A stretch of DNA of 64,000 bases from the NCBI RefSeq assembly GCF_943736985.1, contig NZ_CALSFS010000001.1, positions 806,001-870,000 on the forward strand. The letters run 5' to 3'. The position numbers and the translations under genes are program-made. The notes under the pieces are model-generated. The model had not been told where the DNA came from and did not search any database. It saw only the letters and a program-made list of their open reading frames with translations. This document shows, piece by piece, positions 384 to 20,460 of the stretch (within the stretch, counting starts at the first letter, position 1; every line of letters begins with the position of its first letter). The DNA is from Clostridium sp. Marseille-Q2269. Lineage in GTDB: Bacteria > Bacillota > Clostridia > Clostridiales > Clostridiaceae.

Positions 384-1706
384 TTATCTGTTAATTAAGT
401 TTTTTATAAATTCCATATTTCCGAAGAAATGTACATGGCCATAAGCCCCTAATGTATTGTTTTTTGTATATCCACATTGCCAGTTTCTCTTAGATCCATC
501 ATAAACATCTTTAGTAAGTTCATATATTTTGTCCTCTTTTAAATCCACATAGGATTTATGGAATTCATGACAATTAATTTTTAACCCTTTAGGTAGTATT
601 TTATTTTCTTTTCCTACTTCTATTTTAGCATAGCCAAAGTTTTGAAGTCTTTTAGTCATATGACATTTACCTTTAAAAAATCCTACAGTGTTTTTATAAT
701 CTCCCTCTAAATCTTCTATGCCTTCTGTTAAATACATAAGTCCTCCACATTCTGCATAACATGGTAGTCCATTATTTAATGCTTTATTTATACTACTTAG
801 CATAGATTTGTTTTCTCTTAATTCATTTATAAATATTTCTGGGTATCCTCCGCCTATATATAAAAAATCTAAATGCTCTGGCAATTTTTTATCATTCATA
901 GGACTAAAATATTTTATATTACCTATATTCTCTAATAGTTCTATGTTTTCCTTATAATAAAAACTAAAAGCTCTATCATAAGGTATGCCTATATTTAGAT
1001 TCTTGTTTTCTAAGTAAAAATCATCCTTATATTTTTCTGTTTCTTTAAAATGATTTATCAAATTTTCTACATCTACGTACTTTAATATCAGTTCACTACA
1101 CCTATCTATTTTTTCTTCTAAATCTTTTATTTCACTGCTTTGTATAAGACCTAAATGTCTACTTTTTAATTCTAGTTTTTCTTCCTTTGGTACATATCCA
1201 AAGACCTTTAATCCACAATTTTCTTGAATTAATATCTTAAGCAATTTATAATAGCTTTCACTTACTTTATTAAAAATTACTCCTACTATATTTATCTTTT
1301 CATAATTTAATATTCCCATAATTTCTGCACATAATGTAGCACTTTGGGCTTTTGGAGTTAATACTAAAATCACTGGTAGATTTAAAACCTTTGATAGATA
1401 GGCCGTAGAATATTTTGTGTCTATGCCTTTTCCATCATACAATCCCATTACCCCTTCTATTACTCCTAAATCACCTTTGCCTCTACTATAAGCTGCCTTT
1501 ACGCCATCCGCTCCCATTAAATATAAATCTAGATTTCTAGAACTATTTTCTGTAACATGAGAATGGAAAGCTGGATCTATGTAATCGGGACCAACTTTAT
1601 ACCCCTGAACTTTGTACCCCTTTTTAATTAAGGCTTTCATAAGACCTAAAGTTACTGTGGTCTTTCCGCCCCCACTACTATTAGAAGATATTATTATACT
1701 TCTCAT
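384..1706 (-). CDS. cbiA: Cobyrinate a,c-diamide synthase CbiA
   Basis: At 440 residues this is the usual length for CbiA. The enzyme uses ATP and glutamine to amidate the a and c side chains of cobyrinate in anaerobic cobalamin synthesis. The N-terminal half is a P-loop ATPase with SSGGGKTT near residues 10-17. The C-terminal half is a class I glutamine amidotransferase domain with nucleophile motif YAECGGLMYL near residue 320 and a C-terminal His in GHVHFFGN near residue 425. The ATG at 1706 follows an AGGGGTG ribosome site. It lies between hemB and cbiC in the minus-strand corrin cluster. A strong GC-stemmed hairpin lies just upstream and could tune its expression. Confidence 0.95.
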   Translation of the reverse strand: MRSIIISSNSSGGGKTTVTLGLMKALIKKGYKVQGYKVGPDYIDPAFHSHVTENSSRNLDLYLMGADGVKAAYSRGKGDLGVIEGVMGLYDGKGIDTKYSTAYLSKVLNLPVILVLTPKAQSATLCAEIMGILNYEKINIVGVIFNKVSESYYKLLKILIQENCGLKVFGYVPKEEKLELKSRHLGLIQSSEIKDLEEKIDRCSELILKYVDVENLINHFKETEKYKDDFYLENKNLNIGIPYDRAFSFYYKENIELLENIGNIKYFSPMNDKKLPEHLDFLYIGGGYPEIFINELRENKSMLSSINKALNNGLPCYAECGGLMYLTEGIEDLEGDYKNTVGFFKGKCHMTKRLQNFGYAKIEVGKENKILPKGLKINCHEFHKSYVDLKEDKIYELTKDVYDGSKRNWQCGYTKNNTLGAYGHVHFFGNMEFIKNLINR

Positions 1707-1733
1707 AAAAACACCCCTTTGATTTAAAGTACA

Positions 1734-1771
1734 GAGTGGCGTTTTTTCATAAAATAAAAAAACGCCGCTCT
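1734..1771. terminator. GC-stem hairpin upstream of cbiA
   Basis: The arms GAGTGGCGTTTTTT and AAAAAACGCCGCTC pair around a short A/T loop, with poly-T/poly-A inside the stem. It sits between hemB and cbiA. It could end transcripts arriving from hemB or act as a processing or stability element. A clean U-tract after the stem is missing on both strands, so the terminator role is uncertain. Confidence 0.55.
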
Positions 1772-1857
1772 CAACTTTAAACTAATTCATTTTATATAGA
1801 TTTAATTCAATATAATAAAGATAAAAAATATATAAAATACACATATGAATAAACTTT

Positions 1858-1988
1858 AGCAGTTCTTAATTTGGCCGAATTAAAAATTTTTTGTAAGTTC
1901 TCACAAAACGTGAGAAGTCGGCGATGAAACCAAGAATGGCACCTTTACCGGGTAAAAAATTTTTAATGTAGCCATATTTATAACTGCT
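1858..1988. repeat. 131-bp MITE-like inverted-repeat element
   Basis: The two ends match as inverted repeats over about 34 bp with roughly seven mismatches. Both begin AGCAGTT and share the inner block ATTAAAAATTTTTT. Between them is a perfect small hairpin (TTCTCAC, AAAACG, GTGAGAA) and a GC-richer core, GGCGATGAAACCAAGAATGG. TTA directly flanks the inner ends on both sides and may be a target duplication. It carries no ORF. It could be a miniature transposable element or a structured RNA in the hemB-cbiA spacer; I cannot assign it to a named family. Confidence 0.6.
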
Positions 1989-2059
1989 TAGCAAAATAAA
2001 TGGTTTATAAATATATTTTCTTATCTTTGTGTTTTTAAAATTATCTCTATTTTAAAATA

Positions 2060-3034
2060 TTATTTTCTATCTTCTTTTAACCAAGCACTTGCTTCAAATG
2101 CATAATAAGTTATTATTATATCTGCTCCTGCTCTTTTTATAGATGTTAGCATTTCTAAAGCCACTCTTCTTTCATCTATCAATCCTAATTTTGCAGCTGA
2201 TTTTACCATAGCATATTCTCCACTTACGTTATAAGCTGCCAATGGAAATTCAAATCTATCCTTTGCCATTCTTATTACATCTAAATATGGTAGAGCTGGT
2301 TTTACCATTACTATATCCGCGCCCTCATTTATATCATCTTCTATTTCAAGCATTGCTTCTCTTCCGTTAGCTGGGTCCATTTGATATGTTTTTCTGTCTC
2401 CAAATTGTGGTGCTGAATTAGCTGCTTCTCTAAAAGGACCATAAAAAGCTGAACAATATTTTGCACTATATGCCATTATACCTATATGTTTAAAATTATT
2501 TTCATCTAATATTTTTCTTATAGCATAAACTCTTCCATCCATCATATCTGAAGGAGCTATCATATCTGCACCAGCTTTTGCATAGGATAAAGATATTTTT
2601 GCTAAATATTTTAATGATTCATCATTATCTACATTATGGCCATGAATTATACCACAATGTCCATGACTTGTGTATTGGCACATACATACATCGGCAACTA
2701 TATATAATTCAGGCATTAATTCTTTTAATCTTCTTATACCCTTTTGAACTATTCCATTATCATCAAAAGCTGCTGAACCACATTCGTCTTTATGATCTGG
2801 TACTCCAAATATCATTATTCCTTTTATACCTGATTTTCTAACTTCATCTACTAACTCTTCTAATCTATCTATAGAATAATGATAATTTCCTGGTAAAGAG
2901 GATATTTCTTCTTTAATATTTTCTCCTTCTACCACAAACATTGGATATATAAAATCCTGTTCTGTAATAATTGTCTCTCTTATCATAGATCTTATTGCTT
3001 CATTTTCTCTTAGTCTTCTGTGTCTTCTAAACAT
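2060..3034 (-). CDS. hemB: Delta-aminolevulinate dehydratase (porphobilinogen synthase)
   Basis: This enzyme condenses two 5-aminolevulinate molecules into porphobilinogen. The 324-residue length is typical. The catalytic lysines are visible in YSAKYCSAFYGPFREA near residue 196 and IVMVKPALPYLD near residue 246. The cysteine motif DVCMCQYTSHGHCG marks the zinc-type enzyme. The ATG follows AGGAGA with good spacing. It belongs to the same-strand group hemC, cobA-hemD, hemB that makes uroporphyrinogen III for corrin synthesis. The spacer to the next gene on the left holds an inverted-repeat element. Confidence 0.97.
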   Translation of the reverse strand: MFRRHRRLRENEAIRSMIRETIITEQDFIYPMFVVEGENIKEEISSLPGNYHYSIDRLEELVDEVRKSGIKGIMIFGVPDHKDECGSAAFDDNGIVQKGIRRLKELMPELYIVADVCMCQYTSHGHCGIIHGHNVDNDESLKYLAKISLSYAKAGADMIAPSDMMDGRVYAIRKILDENNFKHIGIMAYSAKYCSAFYGPFREAANSAPQFGDRKTYQMDPANGREAMLEIEDDINEGADIVMVKPALPYLDVIRMAKDRFEFPLAAYNVSGEYAMVKSAAKLGLIDERRVALEMLTSIKRAGADIIITYYAFEASAWLKEDRK

Positions 3035-3150
3035 AACACTCGTCTCCTTTTAGTTTATCGTCAGCTTATGCTAGGCGAATTAAATTTATTTTATATGTAA
3101 ACTATAAAATATTTATAGTCCAATAGCTTAATTGTTACTTACCATACATT

Positions 3151-3333
3151 TTAGTCCTTAAATTTTTCTGGATTTTTAATTTTCATAGATAAGACATGAC
3201 CACATTCTGTACAAATATCTGCTATAACTTTAGAACTAAGCCAACTTCCATCATTTCGCATCATACAGCTATCAAGTTTGCCTTCACCAATCTTTTCACA
3301 TCCACAGATTGGACACTTTTTGTTATGTTCCAT
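3151..3333 (-). CDS. Small zinc-ribbon protein, 60 aa
   Basis: This short protein has two Cys pairs, CPICGC near the start and CTECGH near residue 43. Together they form a four-cysteine zinc ribbon, and there is one further Cys in between. No enzyme domain is visible. It sits between cobA-hemD and hemB on the same strand with wide spacers, so it may simply be co-transcribed. I do not know its function. The composition and the paired CxxC motifs support a real gene. Confidence 0.75.
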   Translation of the reverse strand: MEHNKKCPICGCEKIGEGKLDSCMMRNDGSWLSSKVIADICTECGHVLSMKIKNPEKFKD

Positions 3334-3488
3334 AAACTATCATCTCTTAATACAAAATTCATGATGGTATTTCTTATATAATATATTTTTTCTAAAATAT
3401 GTAGCTATCATCATATGTATTAGACACTATTTCAGCCAAATAGCCTGACTTTATATAAAACATATTTCTCACTTATATTTTGTAAGTA

Positions 3489-3538
3489 TAACTAGATATT
3501 AAAAATATATCTACTTTTATATTTTTAATATCTAGTTA
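3489..3538. terminator. Perfect 21-bp stem at the cobA-hemD stop
   Basis: TAACTAGATATTAAAAATATA and its exact reverse complement flank an 8-base loop. The right arm overlaps the TAG stop of the cobA-hemD gene. Its position suggests transcription termination or 3'-end protection, but no clear U-tract follows. Confidence 0.6.
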
Positions 3539-4992
3539 GGTTGTAAAAGTTTATCTATTATTCCATCTATAGAGTATTCATCACAAATAGTATATTTTAC
3601 ATTGTTTTTTTCTAATTCTTTAGCTGTGATTGGTCCTATGGATATAATATTTTTTTCTTTTATACTCTTTATCCCTATGATAGAAATCATATTTCTAACA
3701 GTGGATGGACTTGTGAATATTACTGTGTCTACATTTTTAAATGTTTCTGTATTCTCACATTTTCCACATAATGTTTCATATATATGTGCTTCATCCACAA
3801 TACAGCCTTCCTTTTTTAATGCATCTACTAGAAAAGGTCTTGCCTCTTTTGAACGAGGAATAAGTATTTTGTCTCCTATTTTTATATACTTTTTCATTTC
3901 TTCAAATAGGCTTTCTGCTATAAAGTGCTTTGACTTAATAATTGGCATTATTCCTCTCATCTTTATTGCTTTACTGGTAGCTGGACCTATAGCTGCAAAT
4001 TTGCCATTAATATTTCTAATATCTATATTTTCTTTAATCAAATAATCAAAAAATATTTTAACTGCATTTACACTAGTAAGTACTATATAATCATATTCTT
4101 TTAAATTATGTAAATAAGATTCTAATTCATTTTCTGTGCTTTTTATTGCTATAGAATTTATTTCTGTAACTTGGGCACCTAGATCTAAAAGTTGAACTTT
4201 CAACTCCTTAGCTTGCTCTTTTGTACGGGTTATGCATATATTTTTACCAAACAAAGGCTTTTTTTCATACCAATTTAATTTATCTGAAAAATCAACTACT
4301 TCTCCTACTACTATTATTACTGGAGATTCCAACTTAGCTTCTTTTACTTTTTCTACTATATTTTCTAAGTTACCTATAACTTTTTTTTGCTTTGAAGTAC
4401 TTCCTTTCATAACCACTGCTATTTTACTTTTCTTATCCATTCCATTTTCTATAAGACCTTTAACTATTAATTCTAATCTGCCAAGTCCCATCATAAATAC
4501 TAAGGTTCCCCCTATATTAACTACTGATTTCCAGTCTATATCTAATTTATCCTTAGTCATAGCTGTAAAAATATGAAATCCTCTTGAAATACCTCTATGG
4601 GTTATAGGAATACCTGCATAATTTAGCACAGCTACTGGAGAAGTCACTCCCGGTATGACTTCAAATTCTATATTTTCATCTATAAGGTCTAAAGCTTCTT
4701 CTCCCCCTCTTCCAAATACATATGGATCTCCACCTTTTATTCTTCCTACAATGTGGCCTTCTTTTGCCAATTTCACTAACATTTCATTTATCTCATCCTG
4801 GCTTTTATAATGACAGCCTGGTTCTTTTCCACAATAATAAACTTTGCAATTTGGTGCTAAATATTTTAACAGTTCTCCATTTGCTAATCTATCATACATA
4901 ACTGCAGTACATTTTTTTAAGGCCCTTATAGCTTTTAGAGTTATTAACTCTTCATCTCCTGGCCCTGCACCAATTAAATATACTTTGCTCAT
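3532..4992 (-). CDS. cobA-hemD: Uroporphyrinogen-III C-methyltransferase / uroporphyrinogen-III synthase fusion
   Basis: This is a fused bifunctional protein of 486 residues. Residues 1 to about 240 are the SAM-dependent methyltransferase: VYLIGAGPGDEELITLKA near the start and GRIKGGDPYVFGRGGEEAL near residue 82. It makes precorrin-2. Residues about 250 to 486 are a HemD-type synthase, which closes and flips ring D to form uroporphyrinogen III. The ATG follows TAGGAGG. The fusion is common in clostridia. It lies directly after hemC and feeds the corrin branch. Confidence 0.96.
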   Translation of the reverse strand: MSKVYLIGAGPGDEELITLKAIRALKKCTAVMYDRLANGELLKYLAPNCKVYYCGKEPGCHYKSQDEINEMLVKLAKEGHIVGRIKGGDPYVFGRGGEEALDLIDENIEFEVIPGVTSPVAVLNYAGIPITHRGISRGFHIFTAMTKDKLDIDWKSVVNIGGTLVFMMGLGRLELIVKGLIENGMDKKSKIAVVMKGSTSKQKKVIGNLENIVEKVKEAKLESPVIIVVGEVVDFSDKLNWYEKKPLFGKNICITRTKEQAKELKVQLLDLGAQVTEINSIAIKSTENELESYLHNLKEYDYIVLTSVNAVKIFFDYLIKENIDIRNINGKFAAIGPATSKAIKMRGIMPIIKSKHFIAESLFEEMKKYIKIGDKILIPRSKEARPFLVDALKKEGCIVDEAHIYETLCGKCENTETFKNVDTVIFTSPSTVRNMISIIGIKSIKEKNIISIGPITAKELEKNNVKYTICDEYSIDGIIDKLLQPN

Positions 4993-5067
4993 ATTTTCCT
5001 CCTAAATATAAGTACATTATTACCTCTTCTTCTAAAATTACTTTTCCTTTTTATAATAGTAACTTAT

Positions 5068-5940
5068 CTAACTTTTAATTATTCTATCTGCTAATTCTAT
5101 ACCTAGTTTTTCATACTGTTCTTTAATTCCTATAATTTCTTTTTTCACTATCTCATTATTAACTTCAAACATACCTATTATATGCATTTTCTCACCTTTT
5201 ATAGATGCATATGCTCCTATGGTTGAATGACAATCTCCATCTAATTCTCTCATAAATGCTCTTTCTGCTGCTACACATACTCTTGAATTATAGTGATCTA
5301 AATCTTTAAATAAATTTTTTTGTGAATGTTCACACCTAACCTCTACCCCTAAAGCACCTTGTCCAACTGCAGGTACCATTTCTTTAGCATCAAAATAATC
5401 TGTAATCAAATGCTCTAGATTTATCCTTTTAAGCCCTGCCACAGCCAATATTATTCCATCTAGATTTTCTTTTCTTATTTTATCTATTCTAGTTTGAACA
5501 TTTCCTCTTATAGGAACTACCTGTAAATCTGGTCTTAAAAGTTTTAATTGTGCAGCTCTTCTTCTGCTACTTGTACCTATTTTAGCTCCCTTTCTTAAAT
5601 CCTTAAATTTAACATTATCTAAAGATATAAATGCATCTCTTACATCTTCCCTTTTGGGAATAGCTATTATTTCAAACCCTTTTGGCATTTCATAGGGCAC
5701 ATCTTTCATACTATGCACTGCAGCATCTGCTCTTTGTTCTAACATTGCCATTTCTATATCCTTAACAAATAATCCTTTTCCCCCTATTTTATCTAAAGAT
5801 ACTTCTAATATTTTATCACCTAAAGTTTCTATTAATAATTTTTCACATTTAATATTATGCTTTTTGTTTAATAAATCTATTATTATCTCTGTTTGCACCT
5901 GTGCAAGCTTACTTCTTCTTGTTGCTATTATAAAATTCAA
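5068..5940 (-). CDS. hemC: Porphobilinogen deaminase (hydroxymethylbilane synthase)
   Basis: The protein polymerises four porphobilinogen units into hydroxymethylbilane. The 290-residue length is normal. Visible family motifs include ATRRSKLAQ at the start, [12 protein letters not shown] near residue 128, and the cofactor-binding cysteine in [11 protein letters not shown] near residue 238. The best start is TTG at 5940, placed after GGAGG. The upstream neighbour is a broken precorrin-2 dehydrogenase gene and the downstream one is cobA-hemD. Confidence 0.96.
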
Positions 5941-6041
5941 AATCTATACCTCCATATATTGAAACTTAACTCAGATTAAATTTAAAATCTATCTAAATTT
6001 TAATTGAATCACTCCAAAAACTTCACAACTCTAATTACCCT

Positions 6042-6680
6042 TTATAAAAAAGTATCACTAGAATTATTAGTCATTGGATAAAACATCGATAATATTAGAT
6101 TACCATACCCTTTTTCGAAAAAAAAGTGAAAATCATTGGTACAGACAAAATCCATTATTTCATCCTTTAATCCATGATTTTTTATGTTACTTCTTATATA
6201 AGTAACATATTCTATATAGTTATCATATACTTCTAACTGTTTTTTTATTTTTTCTCCAATAAATGAGGTAGCTTTGGGACAGCCAACCTTGTTATTTAAA
6301 GCTAAAACCATAGTTTTACTTTCCCTTTGAAAACTATTAAAGCACAAACTCTTATCTTTATCTGAACAGTCTATATATAATTTGCTCAAAGCATCACAAT
6401 CATTTCTTATTTTTCTATTTTCTTCTTCATTTTCTGTGGTTATAACAACTAAATGTTTATCTAATATGTATTCTTTACTATAATTATTTTTTATAAATTC
6501 TATAGTTTCATATGACTTTAGATTTAAAACATCCTCTGAAAACTTAGGGGATAGTATGGATAAACTACAGCCTGTTTTTGTAAAAGCCTTACTCTTTATA
6601 AAAGCTGACCTTCCCCCTCATACTATTAGTATTCTAACTTTATTAGATTTTAGTGCAATAAAATTATATTTTTCCTGCAA
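6042..6680 (-). pseudogene. Precorrin-2 dehydrogenase with in-frame TGA
   Basis: Reading from a TTG at 6680, preceded by GGAG, the frame gives a Met8/CysG-N-type protein of 213 codons. It would oxidise precorrin-2 to sirohydrochlorin (factor II). Codon 21, at 6618-6620, is TGA exactly where the Rossmann motif VGGGR should have its first Gly (GTA TGA GGG GGA AGG). A G-to-T change in GGA explains it. The rest of the frame is open and family-like, with LVVITTENEEENRKI and DKSLCFNSFQRESK. The part after the TGA lacks the start of the NAD site, so a protein from an internal start should be inactive. A sequencing error is the alternative. Confidence 0.82.
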
Positions 6681-7013
6681 GTTTATTCACTCCAAAATTT
6701 TATTTTATATATACAATATAAGTTTATTAAGAAATACCATATTAAAATCATTGCTCTTGTGTATTTTAATTATATACTGTTAAAAATATAATTAAAAATA
6801 CTATGTTTTTATATACTATATAAGGTTTTACTTATGTAATATTAATTTTGTGTATCTTAATACATTAATAACTAAAATACACATATGTTTAATACCATTA
6901 ATATATTTATTAATTAAACCAAATTCCATAAATAATAAAATATATAACATATTTATTCCAATTATAATATTAACAATTTTTATATATAGGGTTGTGTTTT
7001 TAGGCTTAAATCT
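6681..7013. other. 333-bp AT-rich spacer without a recognisable gene
   Basis: This is where a cobalt-transporter ATPase (cbiO) or hemA might be expected in such clusters. I read both strands and found only short, low-complexity frames. No P-loop or glutamyl-tRNA reductase motif is present. Confidence 0.6.
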
Positions 7014-7715
7014 TTACTTAAAATATATTACTAATAATATTATTAAAATAATGTAACATAATATACTTAAAAATCTTATATAGGAAAAATCAAAATTTCT
7101 ATCTAAATAGGGCATATACCCTACATATCCTCTACTATCTAATCCTTCTTTTATTGTTTTCCATCTAATTAGTGTATTTACAAAAAGAATCCCTGCCATT
7201 TTTCCTGTATTTCTTATTTTAAGCTTGAATTCATCAAATCCACCTCTAGATTTTATAGAACTATACAAAATTTCATACTCATCATTTATAACCACTAAAA
7301 ATCTTTCCATTCCCTTGGCAATATCACACATGTCCTTTAAATATGTTCTCTTTGACAAGCAATATAGCATATCATCTATAGGAGTAGTTAAAGAAAAAAA
7401 TGAAAGGCATAATCCTGCACTAACACTTTTAAGTATAATTGTTAGGGTATATAAAATACCATAATCAAAAACAAATGTTATAGAAGATATAGCGGCAAAA
7501 GCAGTTACTTCTAAAGTTATCTTAATAACTATCTTTTTATTATTTTTAAAGATTAAATTTATAACTAGGAAAAATAAAATATTAAAGCATATAATCATAT
7601 AATTTTGAGTAAATCCCAAAATTATAATTGGGGTTATACTCAAAACCGATTTTTCTAAGGGATGTATGTTTGAAAACTTACTGGTTTTTGACAGAAGCAT
7701 TATTATTCTTAGCAT
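7014..7715 (-). CDS. cbiQ: Cobalt ECF transporter membrane protein CbiQ
   Basis: This 233-residue membrane protein is the transmembrane (T) component of the cobalt energy-coupling-factor transporter. It has several hydrophobic segments in the N-terminal 120 residues and a last one at the C-terminus. The two family coupling motifs are visible as SSIKSRGG and KEGLDSRGY; they normally dock on the ATPase CbiO. It overlaps the end of cbiN by 38 bp. An alternative ATG at 7700 would shorten it by five residues. No cbiO follows, so the ATPase must come from elsewhere or be lost. Confidence 0.9.
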   Translation of the reverse strand: MLRIIMLLSKTSKFSNIHPLEKSVLSITPIIILGFTQNYMIICFNILFFLVINLIFKNNKKIVIKITLEVTAFAAISSITFVFDYGILYTLTIILKSVSAGLCLSFFSLTTPIDDMLYCLSKRTYLKDMCDIAKGMERFLVVINDEYEILYSSIKSRGGFDEFKLKIRNTGKMAGILFVNTLIRWKTIKEGLDSRGYVGYMPYLDRNFDFSYIRFLSILCYIILIILLVIYFK

Positions 7716-7977
7716 TTCTCTTTTTACCTATATAATATCCTATAACTCCAGCTCCTAAAGCTGCTTGTGATGCAAATAATAAACTTTCTATTTCTCCTGA
7801 TGGTGGTTCCCAAACACTATGTGCCCATGGTTTATAATCCTTATTCATTTCCTGAATAACCCCTTCTGCTTGATCATCTGCTCCTGCAAATTCTCCTCCT
7901 CTTGCTCCTCCTATAAATAAAGAAGCAAGTATAACTACTGCTGATACTATGGTTATAATAATATTTTGCTTTTTCAT
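7678..7977 (-). CDS. cbiN: Cobalt transport protein CbiN
   Basis: CbiN is the small accessory subunit with two transmembrane helices that works with CbiM in cobalt uptake. This 99-residue protein has one helix at about residues 8-25 and another at about 65-85. Between them is the extracytoplasmic GADDQAEGVIQEMNKDYKPW region characteristic of CbiN. It starts three bases after the cbiM stop with GAGGTATAGTAT before the ATG and overlaps cbiQ, so the three are translationally linked. Confidence 0.92.
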   Translation of the reverse strand: MKKQNIIITIVSAVVILASLFIGGARGGEFAGADDQAEGVIQEMNKDYKPWAHSVWEPPSGEIESLLFASQAALGAGVIGYYIGKKRNAKNNNASVKNQ

Positions 7978-7980
7978 ATA

Positions 7981-8700
7981 CTATACCTCACTTAAAGTTT
8001 TTATTTCTTCTCTTGAGTATTTCATTATAAACTCAAAAATCATAATAGTTATTAATCCCTCTACTATAGCCAATGGTATTTGAGTTATAGAAAATATAGT
8101 AGCGAATTTTGTAAAAGATGCCATTACTCCTCCTACTTTTGCTGGAAAGGATAGGGCTAATTGCATTGATGTAACAGTATATGTGGCTAAATCTCCTAGA
8201 CTTGCAGCTAAAAATATAGCTAATTTTCTGTTCTTATTTTTTAATCCTCTATATATTAGATAAGATACTATAGGACCTACTATTCCCATAGAAAAAGTAT
8301 TGGCTCCAAGAGTTGTTATTCCACCATGGGCTAATAATATAGCTTGGAATAAAAGTACTATTACGCTTACAACTGAAGCTACAAACGGTCCAAATATCAT
8401 AGCTCCAAGGCCTGTACCTGTTGGATGTGAACAACTTCCTGTAACAGATGGTATCTTCATAGCAGATAATATAAATGCATAAGCTGCTACTACTGCTAAT
8501 AGCATTTTTAAGTCTTTATTTTTTTTAGTTTTTTTTCTTACTTGTCTTACTCCTATTATTATAAATGGTGCGCTTAAAACAAAATATAATGCTGCCCACT
8601 TAGGTGGCAAGAATCCTTCTGCAATATGCATAGCGTATGCATTTTGACATAAAGATAATATAAGTGCAGCTGTTAATAAAAACAAATACTTCTTTTTCAT
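7981..8700 (-). CDS. cbiM: Cobalt ECF transporter S component CbiM
   Basis: CbiM binds cobalt and crosses the membrane in the CbiMNQO uptake system. The 239-residue protein starts with a cleavable signal peptide ending AYA. This is followed by MHIAEGFLPP, whose Met-His-Ile start is the metal-binding N-terminus of mature CbiM. Later conserved pieces are SCSHPTGTGLGA near residue 90 and LGANTFSMGIVGP near residue 130. It is the first of the cbiM-cbiN-cbiQ group and starts after AGGAGG. Cobalt supply fits the surrounding cobalamin genes. Confidence 0.95.
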   Translation of the reverse strand: MKKKYLFLLTAALILSLCQNAYAMHIAEGFLPPKWAALYFVLSAPFIIIGVRQVRKKTKKNKDLKMLLAVVAAYAFILSAMKIPSVTGSCSHPTGTGLGAMIFGPFVASVVSVIVLLFQAILLAHGGITTLGANTFSMGIVGPIVSYLIYRGLKNKNRKLAIFLAASLGDLATYTVTSMQLALSFPAKVGGVMASFTKFATIFSITQIPLAIVEGLITIMIFEFIMKYSREEIKTLSEV

Positions 8701-8845
8701 TGTTTACCTCCTATTTTTTATAATATAATTTATTAAATATATACATTAAGTTTAAAATTGATTCCTATACTTTCTACTTTTTCTATAAAAAATCTTATAT
8801 TCCCTAACTGTTAATTTTTCTTACTGACTTTGGTAATTAAATATA

Positions 8846-9934
8846 TCATTCTATAGCTTTTAAAGCATTAATTAGTAATTTATTAAACTCTCTATTTTTA
8901 ATTGCAAATCTTACATAACTATTATTTAAAGTTTTAAAATCGCTACATACTCTTAAAACAAATCCTTCGTTTAAGAGCATTTGTTTTAGCTTTTCTCCTG
9001 TAATATAATTTAACTCACATAGTATAAAATTACTGTAGGTATTATATACATTCTTGAATATGCTAATTTCCTTTAAATTTTCATACATAAAGTTTCTTTC
9101 TTTTTTTATATAATCTATTGATTTCTCTATAAAGTCTATATCTTTTAAAACATATTTAACTGCAACTTCTGCAAAACAATTTATATTCCAAGGATTTTGT
9201 TTTTCTCTTATTTTATTTAAAAAATCCTTATTAAAACTTACACCATAGCCAAATCTCATACCTGGCATAGAAAAAAACTTTGTTATTGCTCTAATTATAA
9301 ATATGCATTTATACTCTTTTAATAGATTAAAAAAACTGAAAGAGTTCTTTCCCGTAAATTCTATAAAGGCTTCATCTAAAATAACAATCTTATTATTTTT
9401 TTCACAGTACTCTAATATGTATATAAATTCTTTTTTATCTATAATTGACCCATTAGGATTATTAGGGTTTCCTAATATTATGCCTTCTGTTTTTTCTAAG
9501 GATTCTTTTATTTTTTTATAATCATATGTCATATCTTCGTTTAAATTACAATAATCAATTTTCACATTCCACTTTTTAGCACATAGTTCATATTCCACAA
9601 AGGACGGTGCTAAAATAGATATGCTCTTTAAATTGCTTATAGATAAATCTATTATTTCTACAGCACCATTTCCTAATACTAAATTTTCTTCTTCTATATT
9701 GAACTTGTGTACTTTTTCTTTATAAAAATAATCTAAAGAAAAATTTAAATAATTTATTAAATTTCTTTTTAAATTTCTATATTGAATATCAGGATAAACT
9801 TGTATTAATCTAAGTGTTTCTTCTAAATTATTTTTAAAACTATCTGGTAATCCTAGAGGGTTTATATTGGAACTAAAATCTATAAGATCTTTACCCTTTA
9901 ATATTCCATCTGTATATATGTCTCCGCCATGCAT
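8846..9934 (-). CDS. cobD: Threonine-phosphate decarboxylase-like aminotransferase (CobD type)
   Basis: This is a 362-residue fold-type I PLP enzyme of the histidinol-phosphate aminotransferase/CobD branch. It begins MHGGDIYTDGILKGKDLIDFSSNINPLG, here described by residues 1-28, which is typical of CobD. The PLP lysine is in ITKFFSMPGMRFGYG near residue 217, and NPNNPNG near residue 155 is the ring-stacking region. CobD decarboxylates L-threonine phosphate to the aminopropanol phosphate of the nucleotide loop. Its position directly after cbiB, which uses that product, supports CobD over HisC. Confidence 0.85.
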   Translation of the reverse strand: MHGGDIYTDGILKGKDLIDFSSNINPLGLPDSFKNNLEETLRLIQVYPDIQYRNLKRNLINYLNFSLDYFYKEKVHKFNIEEENLVLGNGAVEIIDLSISNLKSISILAPSFVEYELCAKKWNVKIDYCNLNEDMTYDYKKIKESLEKTEGIILGNPNNPNGSIIDKKEFIYILEYCEKNNKIVILDEAFIEFTGKNSFSFFNLLKEYKCIFIIRAITKFFSMPGMRFGYGVSFNKDFLNKIREKQNPWNINCFAEVAVKYVLKDIDFIEKSIDYIKKERNFMYENLKEISIFKNVYNTYSNFILCELNYITGEKLKQMLLNEGFVLRVCSDFKTLNNSYVRFAIKNREFNKLLINALKAIE

Positions 9935-10061
9935 AAAAGCACCCTCCTCTTATGAAAATTAATAATCTAAATTTCAACTTATAGTTTAAAATTTCTAAAA
10001 TTATAATTGTTTATTATGATACTATGGTAATTTCTAATGATAACCATACTGGTTCTGAATT

Positions 10062-11063
10062 TTAAAACATACTTACTATGTAAATAAAGAACTTATCTAC
10101 AAATAAAAGCTTAATGATGATACCAAATACTATTAGCATTAAAACTTCACTTAAGTACATAAGCTTTATACCATGTTTTATATGTATAGGTGATAATTCT
10201 TTTATTTTATCTCCTATAGTTGGTTTTTCTACTACTTCACCAAAGTATACATTATTTCCACCTAACTGTATTCTTAAAGCTGCTGCAGTGGCTCCCTCGG
10301 GATAAGCACAGTTGGGGCTCTTATGATTTTTTCTATCTCTTATCATTATTTTAAAACTTTTAAATGGATTTCCACCTACTAAAGGTGATGCTATGCACAT
10401 TAATATTCCTGTTAATCTAGCTGGAATAAAATTAAAAAAATCATCAACTTTGGCTGGAAAACGTCCTATATATCTGTATTTATCATTTAAATAGCCCAGC
10501 ATAGAATCCATGGTATTAACTCCTTTGTACATCATGGCCAAAGGTGCTCCACCAATTATGGCATAAAAAAGTGGTGCTATTATACCATCTGATGCATTTT
10601 CTGCTACAGTTTCTACATCTGCTCTTATTATTTCATTTTCAACTAAATCCTTAGTTTCTCTCCCTACTATATAAGAAAGCCTCACCCTAGCATCTTCTAC
10701 ATTTTCTTTATGTAAAGCATTGTATATTTTTATAGCCTCTTCATGTAGACATCTAGCTGCCAACGTTGTCCATATTATTAGAATATTTAGTCCATGATAA
10801 ATATAAAAATTAAAATTAAAAATTTTTAAAAGTACATATGGTATTAAAAAACTAATAATACAAACTATGATTACAATTAACTCACCGTAGCATTTTAAGC
10901 TTTCTTCTTTTTTTGCTTTCCCTCTAAACTTTTTCTCTAAAAAACTAATAAGCTTTCCTATATATATAACTGGATGTGGAAACCAATAAGGATCTCCAAT
11001 AATCCAATCTATAATTACTGCTATAATTATGTCTATAAAATTTATAACTATATTTGAATACAT
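10062..11063 (-). CDS. cbiB: Adenosylcobinamide-phosphate synthase CbiB
   Basis: CbiB is an integral membrane enzyme that joins aminopropanol (phosphate) to adenosylcobyric acid. The 333 residues include family motifs IDWIIGDPYWFPHPVIYIGK near the start, AENASDGIIAPLFY near residue 155, and the CAYPEGATAAALRIQLGG region near residue 250. It lies 79 bp after cobQ/cbiP, which makes its substrate, and before the CobD-like gene, which makes the other substrate. Confidence 0.94.
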   Translation of the reverse strand: MYSNIVINFIDIIIAVIIDWIIGDPYWFPHPVIYIGKLISFLEKKFRGKAKKEESLKCYGELIVIIVCIISFLIPYVLLKIFNFNFYIYHGLNILIIWTTLAARCLHEEAIKIYNALHKENVEDARVRLSYIVGRETKDLVENEIIRADVETVAENASDGIIAPLFYAIIGGAPLAMMYKGVNTMDSMLGYLNDKYRYIGRFPAKVDDFFNFIPARLTGILMCIASPLVGGNPFKSFKIMIRDRKNHKSPNCAYPEGATAAALRIQLGGNNVYFGEVVEKPTIGDKIKELSPIHIKHGIKLMYLSEVLMLIVFGIIIKLLFVDKFFIYIVSMF

Positions 11064-11141
11064 TTTATTTTCATCCTTACATTCATTACTTTTATCTTAT
11101 GTCTAAAAATTACTTACACAATATTTTGTCTTGTAAATAGT

Positions 11142-12623
11142 CTATTTAATATTCATAATGGAATATATTTTTTTCATATCTAAGCTTTCTCTCACTATAT
11201 CTGCAAGCTTATCTAATTCTTTTTCTCTTATATGCTCATATGTCTGTGATTTCTTTGGATTTAATCCTTTTTTTACTCTTAATTCATTTACTATTTTTTC
11301 TCTAAAACCAATCCCATCGAAAACTCCATGGATGTAAGTTCCCATTACATTGCCTTTTTCATTTATGACTCCATCAACCCAATCTGATTTTTCTCCATTT
11401 TTATCATATATTTTAAATAACGGTTCAATATTTTCTCCAGTCTTTGTTATTCCCATATGTATTTCATAGCCATAAACAGTATTGTTATTTTCTTCATTTA
11501 TCAATTTTGCATTAACTCTAGTCATGACTTTTTCTTTTTCAAAAATTGTTTCCATATCCAAAAGATTTAATCCATCTATTTCTCCTAAATCTGTTTCTAC
11601 TTTATATGGATCTTTAATTTTTCTTCCTAATACTTGATATCCTCCGCATATGCCTATTATTTTCCCCTCATTACTATATTCTTTTATCTTTTGTTCTAAA
11701 CCACATTGTCTTAAATAAAGTAAATCTTCTATAGTATTTTTACTACCAGGTATTATTAATAAATCTGGTTTTTTAAATTCTTCTTTTGAAGTTACAAATC
11801 TTATAGACACATCTTCTTCTAATTTTAAAGCATCTAAATCTGTAAAGTTTGATATATGGGGCATTCTTATTACTGCTATATCAATTGGTGCATAAACTTT
11901 TTTATTAAATTCTACTGCTCCATCCTCATCTTCTAACTGTAATCTTGTATAAGGTACTACACCTAAACAAGGAATATGTACTATATCCTCTAACATGTCC
12001 AATCCTGGTTTTAATATTTCAACGTCTCCTCTAAACTTGTTTATTATATTTCCCTTTACTCTTGCTTTTTCTTCTTCAGTTAAAAGAAGCATAGTTCCTG
12101 CTAAAGATGCAAAAACTCCACCTTTATCTATGTCTCCAACTAAAAGTACAGGAGCATCTGCAAGTTCTGCCATGCCCATATTTACAATATCATTCTCTCT
12201 TAAATTTATTTCCGCAGGACTACCTGCTCCCTCCATAACTATTATGTCAAAATTCTCTTCTAACTTGTTAAACTGTTCTTTTAACATCTCTTTAAATTTG
12301 GGCTTTAAAATATGATATTCCATAGCAGTGCTATTTCCATATACCTTACCGTTAACTATTATTTGAGATTTTTTATCTGAACTTGGTTTTAAAAGTATTG
12401 GATTCATATATGCCTCCGGTTCTAATCCCGCTGCATAAGCTTGAAGCACCTGAGCTCTTCCCATTTCTTTTCCGTCTAAAGTTATGTAAGAATTTAAAGA
12501 CATATTTTGTGATTTATAAGGACACACACTATACCCATCCTGTTTAAATATTCTACAAAGGGCAGTCACTATAAGACTTTTACCTACAGAAGAGGCTGTT
12601 CCCTGAATCATTATTTTAGCCAT
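11142..12623 (-). CDS. cobQ: Cobyric acid synthase CobQ/CbiP
   Basis: This ATP- and glutamine-dependent amidase adds four amide groups to adenosylcobyrinate diamide. The 493-residue length is typical. The N-terminal P-loop is [10 protein letters not shown] at residues 7-16, and [16 protein letters not shown] follows near residue 80. The C-terminal glutaminase domain has [12 protein letters not shown] near residue 328 and [10 protein letters not shown] near residue 430. It is the first gene after the cobalamin riboswitch, so its transcription should fall when cobalamin is plentiful. Confidence 0.96.
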
Positions 12624-18094: not shown

Positions 18095-18652
18095 TTATTT
18101 TATCTTCAAAGGAATTCCACAAGCAACCAAATAAACTTCATCACTTAAAGATGCTATAAATTTATTTATAATTCCCTGAAAATCCCTGAATATTCTACCT
18201 AACTTATAAGGCGGAACAACTCCATACCCCACTTCATTAGTCACTAATATAATATTTTTATTTTCATGTGTTGATGATATTATTAGATTATTGAATTGCT
18301 TTTTTATACCTTCTAAAATTCTATCCAATTCTTCCTCTGTAATATTTTCATAATCTATTTCTTTATGAAACATTAAATTAGTTATGGTTGTAGTTACACA
18401 ATCTAACAATATATTTTTTTCCTTATAATTTTTTATTACCTCTCCTAAATCCATATATCCTTCATAGGTTTTCCAAGAGGCACTTCTTCTTTGTTTATGT
18501 TTTTCAGCTCTATGCTCCATTTCATGGTCAGTAATTTTTGCTGTAGCTATATATAAAACACTTTCTTCATTTTCAAGCAAACTCTCTGCAAATTCACTTT
18601 TACCACTTCTTACTCCACCGGTTATTAACGTAATCTTACCTTTATTTTTCAT
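18095..18652 (-). CDS. cobU: Adenosylcobinamide kinase / adenosylcobinamide-phosphate guanylyltransferase
   Basis: CobU phosphorylates adenosylcobinamide and then attaches GMP to prepare the nucleotide loop. The 185-residue length is typical. The P-loop ITGGVRSGKSEFAE is at residues 8-21. HEMEHRAEKHKQRR carries the candidate guanylylated His near residue 46, and ILLDCVTTTITNL is the Walker-B-like strand. It stands apart from the main cobalamin cluster, and no cobS or cobC is adjacent. It lies 41 bp after the helicase-LexA gene on the same strand. Confidence 0.94.
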   Translation of the reverse strand: MKNKGKITLITGGVRSGKSEFAESLLENEESVLYIATAKITDHEMEHRAEKHKQRRSASWKTYEGYMDLGEVIKNYKEKNILLDCVTTTITNLMFHKEIDYENITEEELDRILEGIKKQFNNLIISSTHENKNIILVTNEVGYGVVPPYKLGRIFRDFQGIINKFIASLSDEVYLVACGIPLKIK

Positions 18653-18693: not shown

Positions 18694-20325
18694 TTATTTT
18701 TCCTTTATTACACCCACTGCTACTCCTATAATACTTGCTCCTTCTTCTGTAATTTCTATAGGTTTATAGTTTTTATTTTCTGGCATAAGTACTGCACCTG
18801 ATTTTTTTATTAATAATCTTTTTAGTGTGGCACTTCCACCCATATTCACTGCTACTATATCTTTGTTTTCAGCCATCTGTTGTTGTTTTATCACCACATG
18901 GTCTCCATCATCTATATTAGCACCTATCATACTATCTCCTTTTACTTTTAGTATAAAACATTCTTTCATACCTTTTACCCAAAACTTAGGAATAGCAAAG
19001 TCCCCTTCTATACAAGGATTCATAAGTATAGGTTCTCCCGCTGCTATGTCATTAAATACTGGAATCTTCATTAGATTGTCTTCTTTATACTCTTCTTTTA
19101 CTGATCCATCTTCTACTATAATTTCTTCACTGTTAGATGAATCTTTAATAAATTCATAAGATCTTCTATGTTTCATATCAATATATTTATATTTGTCCAT
19201 AGCATACTTCACCTTGTCTTTATGTGATTTATTTTCGCTTTTATCATTGTTATTCTTATCTAAACTTTTATCTTCAAAATTAGCACATTTTATATTATAA
19301 ACATCTATATTGCCATTTAAATCTTTTCTTATAAGCTTATCTTCTTTTATATGATATGATAGATTTTCCTCAGCATTTTTATTTAGCATTTCATCACCAA
19401 AACAGATTCTTTTATTTAAGTTAAATCTTTTAAATTCAAACCCTAAGTTAAGATTACTTAATTTCCGGCCCTTAGTTATCCAGCCCTTAGAATCTGATAT
19501 TTCTTCTTTGTCTGCAACAAACAATATGCTAGAATATATATCTTTTTTGCCTAAACACTCTATAAATTTTAATTCTAATTTAGTAAAATTCTGTGCTTCA
19601 TCTACTATTATGTGATTAAATCTATTTTGTTTATGACTAATAGCTTGTTTTAAAGCTATGTTTACCACATCACTATAATCAACTAAATTATTATTCTTCA
19701 ACTTTTCATTGTATAGAAGCATAATTTTAAATATGGCTTCTCTAGTTAAAGAATTTTTTACAACCCTTTGAGGTCCTTCCCCTTTTTTTACCTTTCTACC
19801 TACCCTATCTGCATTTTTATATTCCTCAAAATCGTAATACATACAATTCTTTATCCATTGTACTTCTTCTAAAAAGAATTTATTATACTTTGTATATACA
19901 TACTTTAGATTTTTATATTTATCCTTTATATAACTTATGCATTCTTTAATTATAGCTAATCTTTGTTTCTCTGTTGCCAATTTACATTTTATATCCTTAT
20001 GTTTTATGTACTTAGAAAAGTATTGATTTATGATTTTATCTATATCTGAAAAATATAACTTGTCTTCTATATATGAAAATAGTGTAATATATTGAACTCC
20101 TTCATTTTCTGCCTCATTATATATATCTTTGATATATTTTAAATTTTTATCAGTTTTTGATAAAATTAATACTTTATCTTTTTCATACATACAATATTGA
20201 TTTTTTAAATAAATACCTCTATATATAGCTGCTATAGTTTTACCAGTACCTACTTTTCCTCTTAATAATCCATATCCTAAATGTTTGCTTTTTACTACTC
20301 TATTTTGTCCACTTTCCAAGTTCAT
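18694..20325 (-). CDS. SF1-helicase-like ATPase fused to a LexA-type S24 peptidase
   Basis: This 543-residue fusion has two parts. Residues 1 to about 330 resemble the N-terminal half of a UvrD/Rep helicase: Walker A GKVGTGKT near 24-31 and Walker B IIVDEAQNF near 240. The later helicase motifs IV-VI are not seen. A charged Asn/Lys/Asp-rich linker follows at about 335-415. The C-terminal 120 residues form a LexA/UmuD-like domain. They have a cleavage-like AAGEP site, the catalytic Ser in KGDSMIGANIDDGD and the Lys in ATLKRLL. LexA-type self-cleavage normally depends on RecA, so a DNA-damage-responsive ATPase is plausible, but no function can be stated. The ATG follows AAGGAGGTGG. Confidence 0.85.
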   Translation of the reverse strand: MNLESGQNRVVKSKHLGYGLLRGKVGTGKTIAAIYRGIYLKNQYCMYEKDKVLILSKTDKNLKYIKDIYNEAENEGVQYITLFSYIEDKLYFSDIDKIINQYFSKYIKHKDIKCKLATEKQRLAIIKECISYIKDKYKNLKYVYTKYNKFFLEEVQWIKNCMYYDFEEYKNADRVGRKVKKGEGPQRVVKNSLTREAIFKIMLLYNEKLKNNNLVDYSDVVNIALKQAISHKQNRFNHIIVDEAQNFTKLELKFIECLGKKDIYSSILFVADKEEISDSKGWITKGRKLSNLNLGFEFKRFNLNKRICFGDEMLNKNAEENLSYHIKEDKLIRKDLNGNIDVYNIKCANFEDKSLDKNNNDKSENKSHKDKVKYAMDKYKYIDMKHRRSYEFIKDSSNSEEIIVEDGSVKEEYKEDNLMKIPVFNDIAAGEPILMNPCIEGDFAIPKFWVKGMKECFILKVKGDSMIGANIDDGDHVVIKQQQMAENKDIVAVNMGGSATLKRLLIKKSGAVLMPENKNYKPIEITEEGASIIGVAVGVIKEK

Positions 20326-20419
20326 ATCTCCACCTCCTTATTCCATATATAATTGTTTATATATAGTTTTTTATACTTACACCAATTTGTCATAATCTAT
20401 AGACTCCAAGAAGAACTTA

Positions 20420-20460
20420 TTGTATATAATTAAATGTATCATTTACTTAATTATATACAA
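20420..20460. promoter_or_regulatory. Perfect 14-bp inverted repeat upstream of the helicase-LexA gene
   Basis: TTGTATATAATTAA and TTAATTATATACAA flank a 13-base spacer, about 95 bp before the start codon at 20325. It may be an operator or the end of the decayed acetyltransferase. No T-run follows, and it does not match the Gram-positive SOS box GAAC-N4-GTTC. Confidence 0.45.

Follow-up and report, generated by a model that had tools for sequence, protein, structure and literature searches.

One gene in a 64,000-nucleotide stretch of Clostridium sp. Marseille-Q2269 (contig NZ_CALSFS010000001.1, positions 806,001 to 870,000; the whole stretch is called the window below) encodes a protein in which the front part of a UvrD/Rep-type helicase is joined to a LexA-type S24 autopeptidase (Table 1). 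On balance, this protein and its relatives are regarded as self-cleaving proteins of the LexA/UmuD type, in which a degenerate 1A/1B domain of superfamily 1 (SF1, UvrD/Rep) replaces the DNA-binding domain and in which self-cleavage would remove that N-terminal domain. The group is referred to here as the short form and is defined by domains 1A/1B joined to a beta module and an S24 domain, with a length of 440–560 amino acids and without domain 2A or HSDR_N_2; the window protein fits this definition. The short form was found in at least 112 of the 206 genomes of the Clostridium bovifaecis family, presumably Clostridiaceae (111 complete and one, L061, truncated where its contig ends; five genomes having only shorter frames are excluded from the count). 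It is apparently an undescribed variant architecture of the LexA/UmuD kind. A literature search covering titles and the starts of abstracts recognised, among the matches listed, no paper describing a helicase–S24 architecture, and in the available passages of PMC3765255 the string 'uvrd' occurs 0 times and no helicase–S24 fusion is named.

Pfam matched two separate domains in the window protein, each above its curated cut-off: the UvrD-helicase N-terminal domain (residues 19–273, E 1.2e-10) and Peptidase_S24 (residues 422–537, E 6.3e-28). An earlier note on this DNA had read helicase motifs I and II and a full S24 domain in one protein, and this was borne out, both motifs being located (motif II as VDEAQNF, residues 241–247). 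The AAGEP site, the serine in GDSM and the lysine in TLKRL that it had pointed out are likewise all present, the first within IAAGEP at residues 427–432 and the others as Ser465 and Lys502. The C-terminal helicase motifs had been described as missing, as indeed they are; UvrD_C was not matched by Pfam, and motifs IV–VI are missing in the alignment with full-length relatives. Residues 275–421 gave no Pfam match at E up to 1. This region includes the charged linker already recognised in the note, which has a predicted local distance difference test (pLDDT) score below 50 at residues 304–374 of the predicted structure. The linker measures 72 residues in the window protein, with a median of 22 in 112 short forms; in eight long forms (see below), about 340 residues occupy this place. 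On structure comparison, the predicted fold of the N-domain was found to resemble domains 1A/1B of UvrD, Rep and PcrA, and the predicted S24 fold closely resembles RecA-bound LexA structures; the beta module (residues 376–419) was searched by structure only jointly with S24. Pfam and NCBIfam matched the separate domains only, no model spanning the whole architecture.

Residue conservation was followed in an alignment of 75 short forms, the window protein included, and eight long forms. L061 (contig end), L103 (no S24 match) and the fragments L127 and L128 were left out of this first set; the last three are matched genes that miss one half or are broken up. A held-out set was gathered later as a check, in which 37 of 38 entries were used; L180 (genome G113), the C-terminal part of a long form whose frame is broken by a stop, was left out. 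Over all 112 short forms, the IAAG site, the serine and the lysine are each present in 112, and the strict Walker A pattern [GA]xxxxGK[TS] in 102. In the held-out 37 alone, the corresponding counts are 37, 37, 37 and 34. The search of genomes for the same architecture, which the earlier note had proposed, thus recovered it, with no change in the self-cleavage residues, in 111 further proteins of the alignment, which places the architecture beyond chance.

The helicase residues have fared differently. The glutamate of motif II is kept in only 20 of the 112 short forms (3 of the held-out 37) and Gln245 of the same motif in 19 of 75, and the short forms have lost both the glutamine of motif III and the NYR of motif IV that the long form carries. 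On a tree of the N-domain from 120 proteins, the state of the motif II glutamate changes at least 11 times, which indicates repeated loss. All eight long forms retain the glutamate and glutamine of motif II, and seven of the eight retain the Ala–Gly site. In the remaining one, from Ilyobacter (L001:8001-10433), VSGDVP replaces this site while the serine and lysine remain, and this protein may therefore have lost self-cleavage. Three N-domain residues, Glu154, Tyr205 and His238, are invariant in all 75 short forms of the first alignment; hence, the N-domain is under constraint.

With LexA the window protein shares the S24 domain, including the Ala–Gly site and the Ser–Lys dyad, but the winged-helix N-domain is missing and a UvrD-like N-domain stands instead; the score against the LexA model (NCBIfam TIGR00498) is 101.2 bits, below the equivalog cut-off of 110.95. 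UmuD, a LexA-like autopeptidase that controls a polymerase, is similar in being an S24 autopeptidase without a DNA-binding domain. It has a short N-arm ahead of S24, whereas about 420 residues precede this domain in the window protein, which scores 72.4 bits against a cut-off of 110 (NF007621). No UmuC was recognised beside the gene on reading the open reading frames (ORFs) of the window, few of which were profile-scanned. The available passages of PMC7101444 state that LexA-like autopeptidases mostly control DNA-binding domains; IrvR of Streptococcus mutans, described there, resembles the short form in its C-terminal S24 domain, its Ala–Gly site and an N-fragment carrying a C-degron. The 1A/1B fold, Walker A and motif II DExQ (here DEAQ) are shared with the UvrD/Rep/PcrA helicases, but these own domain 2A and motifs IV–VI, and the window protein has neither. 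In SF1 enzymes, the motif IV and motif VI arginines come from domain 2A. Without this domain the window copy should not translocate, despite its DEAQ. Identity with GajB of Gabija was considered and rejected, the helicase being truncated and the neighbours being cobU and a GntR regulator, not gajA; the window protein matches GajB at 3e-5 only. A relationship with HelD was also discarded, as sequence matches were weak and limited to residues 3–90 and structural ranks were lower than those of UvrD/Rep.

A class-wide sample of 391 genomes gave matches at 1e-27 in 11, each of which belongs to the C. bovifaecis family; at most three candidates were scored per genome, and weaker relatives outside the family may be missed. 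Within this search reach, the short-form architecture looks confined to the family and widespread in it. A similar, longer protein was found by tblastn on an Ilyobacter megaplasmid (WP_013389202.1), where it is annotated merely as 'S24 family peptidase'. Among 72,556 plasmid records, 286 matched, and the only one covering at least 80% of the query was that of Ilyobacter. Of 50,697 phage records, 41 matched, none covering more than 80% of the window protein, and the 30 matches listed all fall in the S24 half only. Two scans of viral contigs gave no confirmed relative. A scan of genome contigs gave no match with the window protein alone and seven loci with an alignment of the window and Ilyobacter N-domains, five of them long forms.

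These five, of 815–830 amino acids, come from Anaerobium acetethylicum, Clostridium bovifaecis, a Lachnospiraceae metagenome-assembled genome (MAG), a Marinisporobacter MAG and Desulfosarcina alkanivorans. In the Ilyobacter protein Pfam matched UvrD N, UvrD_C, HSDR_N_2 and S24, and the same four domains were matched in the C. bovifaecis protein (L005). Long and short forms have in common their start, the beta module and the S24 end; the long form, of about 815 amino acids, differs in retaining UvrD_C and HSDR_N_2 between the N-domain and the beta module with S24. Most likely, the short form arose from a long ancestor by loss of 2A and HSDR_N_2. In the tree of the S24 part, the 75 short forms stand apart from the rest, except that one long form (L138) groups with them; in the N-domain tree, five short forms (L052, L054, L058, L063, L126) group with long forms. 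The two trees are in slight conflict. The short form may have originated once or twice.

The PADLOC models for GajB and NERD-UvrD, which are described as UvrD helicase or NERD plus UvrD, without S24, match the helicase part of three long forms (best 1e-31 to 9e-42). Neighbours of the long form are defence- or DNA-processing-like in three of the six named loci. In C. bovifaecis (L005:7001-13587), an HNH endonuclease gene and a type IV restriction-like PLD-helicase gene follow immediately, so that these surroundings are possibly a defence island. The long form lies near NERD-UvrD and RecQ-like genes in the Marinisporobacter MAG (L007:7001-14174) and near RecQ-like and DprA genes in D. alkanivorans (L008:3397-9451); in both, a RecQ-like helicase gene is paired with a dprA-cluster gene. 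The long forms of Ilyobacter, Anaerobium and the Lachnospiraceae MAG are surrounded by seemingly ordinary metabolic and transport genes.

In the reading favoured here, S24 probably mediates dimerisation of the full-length short form, and 1A/1B is probably a module that binds nucleotide without translocating and holds on to a partner or nucleic acid. The trigger would be activated RecA filaments, or assembly via the N-domain as reported for IrvR. Ser465 and Lys502 would then cut the Ala429–Gly430 bond. According to the passages available from PMC7101444, self-cleavage of LexA-like proteins falls between Ala and Gly and exposes degrons. The resulting N-fragment would end in -Asp-Ile-Ala-Ala, like the C-degrons exposed on cleavage of LexA and IrvR, and a Clp protease would remove it. 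The predicted end is -IAA in all 112 short forms, and four canonical LexAs have -TA or -PA. Ends in -AA resemble ClpX signals. Since the predicted -IAA end is degron-like, the output is taken to be that the N-domain is lost or is removed in a timed manner, and not that a helicase is activated.

Several observations weigh against this reading. The window copy retains both glutamate and glutamine of motif II and might therefore still be able to hydrolyse ATP, which is the chief reason for caution in calling this copy a pseudo-ATPase. In 10 of the 112 short forms the strict Walker A pattern is not matched, so that nucleotide binding would not be essential everywhere. The genes clpS–clpA follow the short-form gene in 7 of 75 loci, with gaps of 10–226 bp, in the window's nearest clade; the linkage is seen in this one clade only and in none of the 37 held-out loci, it may be mere shared descent, and the linked genes encode ClpS/ClpA, not ClpX. 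SOS boxes with at most one mismatch are not enriched, preceding 3 of 74 short-form genes (those of the 75 with enough upstream DNA) and 29 of 789 control genes, and this weakens a role in the damage response. The four lexA control genes are all preceded by an SOS box; at the window gene, the best match has three mismatches.

A possible alternative, somewhat less probable than the favoured reading, is a timer independent of RecA, in which the N-domain drives dimerisation and constitutive self-cleavage and the protein level follows the rate of synthesis or the nucleotide state. The lack of SOS-box enrichment agrees with it, as does the invariance of Glu154, Tyr205 and His238 while helicase residues erode. 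IrvR offers a precedent, being reported in the passages available to cleave itself independently of RecA by means of a dimerisation region at its N-terminus (PMC7101444). On the other side, the S24 model resembles RecA-bound LexA structures well, so that cleavage may yet depend on RecA.

It is unlikely that the short form is a transcription regulator which binds DNA via 1A/1B or the beta module and regulates itself like LexA, even though its C-terminal half is LexA-like. Upstream of the short-form gene, one clade has a 13-nt palindrome (ATACTA-T-TAGTAT) that coincides in part with a -10-like element. It is exact in 6 of the 15 genomes of the clade (L066, L075, L076, L077, L078, L081), both halves change together in a few of the others, and it is a possible operator. 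Against this stand the failure to find a helix-turn-helix domain in the window protein with Pfam and NCBIfam, and the lack of any sighting of this palindrome in the clade of the window.

The earlier note had suggested an active SF1 ATPase or helicase whose activity is switched on or off when RecA drives cleavage by S24. This interpretation is partly supported: an S24 switch on a helicase-derived domain is probable, but an active enzyme is improbable, since domain 2A is missing, the motif II residues are lost from most short forms and the motif III and IV residues of the long form are gone, although the window copy keeps Walker A and DEAQ in a fold matching 1A/1B of UvrD/Rep/PcrA. It is very doubtful that the short form restrains the long helicase–nuclease through mixed S24 dimers. 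The N- and S24 domains of the two forms are homologous, and 22 of the 35 genomes of the C. bovifaecis family with a long-form region (27 with frames of 810 or more) also carry the short form, but this overlap falls short of significance (Fisher p 0.35, or 0.41 when only long forms with frames of at least 810 are counted), and no long-form region was seen in 90 of the genomes that carry the short form. A functionless, decaying remnant of the long protein, as the repeated erosion of helicase residues and the halved or fragmented copies might suggest, is hardly credible given the occurrence in at least 112 genomes, and is already contradicted by the invariance of IAAG, Ser and Lys.

No neighbour is common to the whole short-form family (75 loci). 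The earlier note had drawn attention to cobU; the adjacency is real in the window, but it is not conserved, no cobU relative having been found within flanks of a few kb beside other short forms. The cobU gene stands apart from a heme/cobalamin biosynthesis cluster recognised by ORF reading at 384-12623 of the window. A DEDDh 3'-5' exonuclease gene lies beside the short form or one gene from it in 16 of 112 loci, four times upstream and 12 times downstream, always on the same strand and with seven changes on the tree; the assignment rests on Pfam RNase_T for one member (L117) and on similarity for the others. That it recurs in varying gene orders is the strongest pointer to a partner, although the arrangement may be inherited. 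No prophage or mobile context was recognised in the short-form neighbourhoods read, which vary between clades.

The 14-bp palindrome that had been noted upstream of the window gene is real, an AT-rich inverted repeat with 100% complementary arms (20420-20433 and 20447-20460, 13 nt apart); the longest repeat in 60 first-order simulations of the same region was 12 nt. Its arms are absent from the seven nearest relatives. One of these seven, L059, has a different inverted repeat of 16 nt upstream.

Table 1 Features of the window gene and of loci with recurrent neighbours
Feature	Position	Strand	Remarks
Short-form pseudo-helicase–S24 gene	18694..20325	-	single unbroken ORF, ATG start, 543 amino acids
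UvrD/Rep-type 1A/1B domain	19417..20325	-	residues 1-303
Walker A GKVGTGKT	20236..20259	-	residues 23-30
Motif II VDEAQ	19591..19605	-	residues 241-245; intact in window, degenerate in most relatives
Charged linker	19201..19416	-	residues 304-375; in place of long-form domain 2A and HSDR_N_2
Conserved beta module preceding S24	19069..19200	-	residues 376-419; common to long form
LexA-type S24 autopeptidase domain	18697..19068	-	residues 420-543
Predicted scissile bond Ala429-Gly430	19036..19041	-	IAAG in 112/112 short forms
Predicted catalytic Ser465	18931..18933	-	112/112 short forms
Predicted catalytic Lys502	18820..18822	-	112/112 short forms
Ribosome-binding site GGAGGTGG	20330..20337	-	5-12 nt upstream of ATG; read from sequence
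14-nt inverted repeat	20420..20460	.	upstream of gene
cobU	18095..18652	-	neighbour 41 bp downstream, same strand; Pfam CobU E 9.9e-58
clpS–clpA loci	L051:6653-10828, L056, L059, L060, L064, L069, L073		Pfam on one locus
DEDDh exonuclease loci	L117:3405-4304, L062:5983-6909, L149, L161, L168, L169, L177, L179, others		

The finding is more general than the earlier note could see, and the proposed mechanism is now that of a switch which sits on a degenerate helicase domain and works by self-cleavage. Strictly kept self-cleavage residues next to helicase residues that erode suggest that a nucleotide-binding module carries a self-destruct switch. The short form also suggests a route by which a defence-like helicase–nuclease could become a cellular regulator, and it allows a direct test of the idea that S24 switches can be gated by an ATPase-derived domain rather than by RecA alone. 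A bolder proposal, which is put forward tentatively and is rather doubtful as a whole, is that the pseudo-helicase reads ATP or single-stranded nucleic acid and so licenses its own LexA-type self-cleavage outside the classical LexA regulon, having evolved from a defence-like helicase–nuclease–S24 protein of which the sensor and the switch were kept and the effector parts given up, and possibly acting in concert with the DEDDh exonuclease encoded next to it in some loci. If this were true, half of one bacterial family would carry an undescribed nucleotide-gated proteolytic switch.
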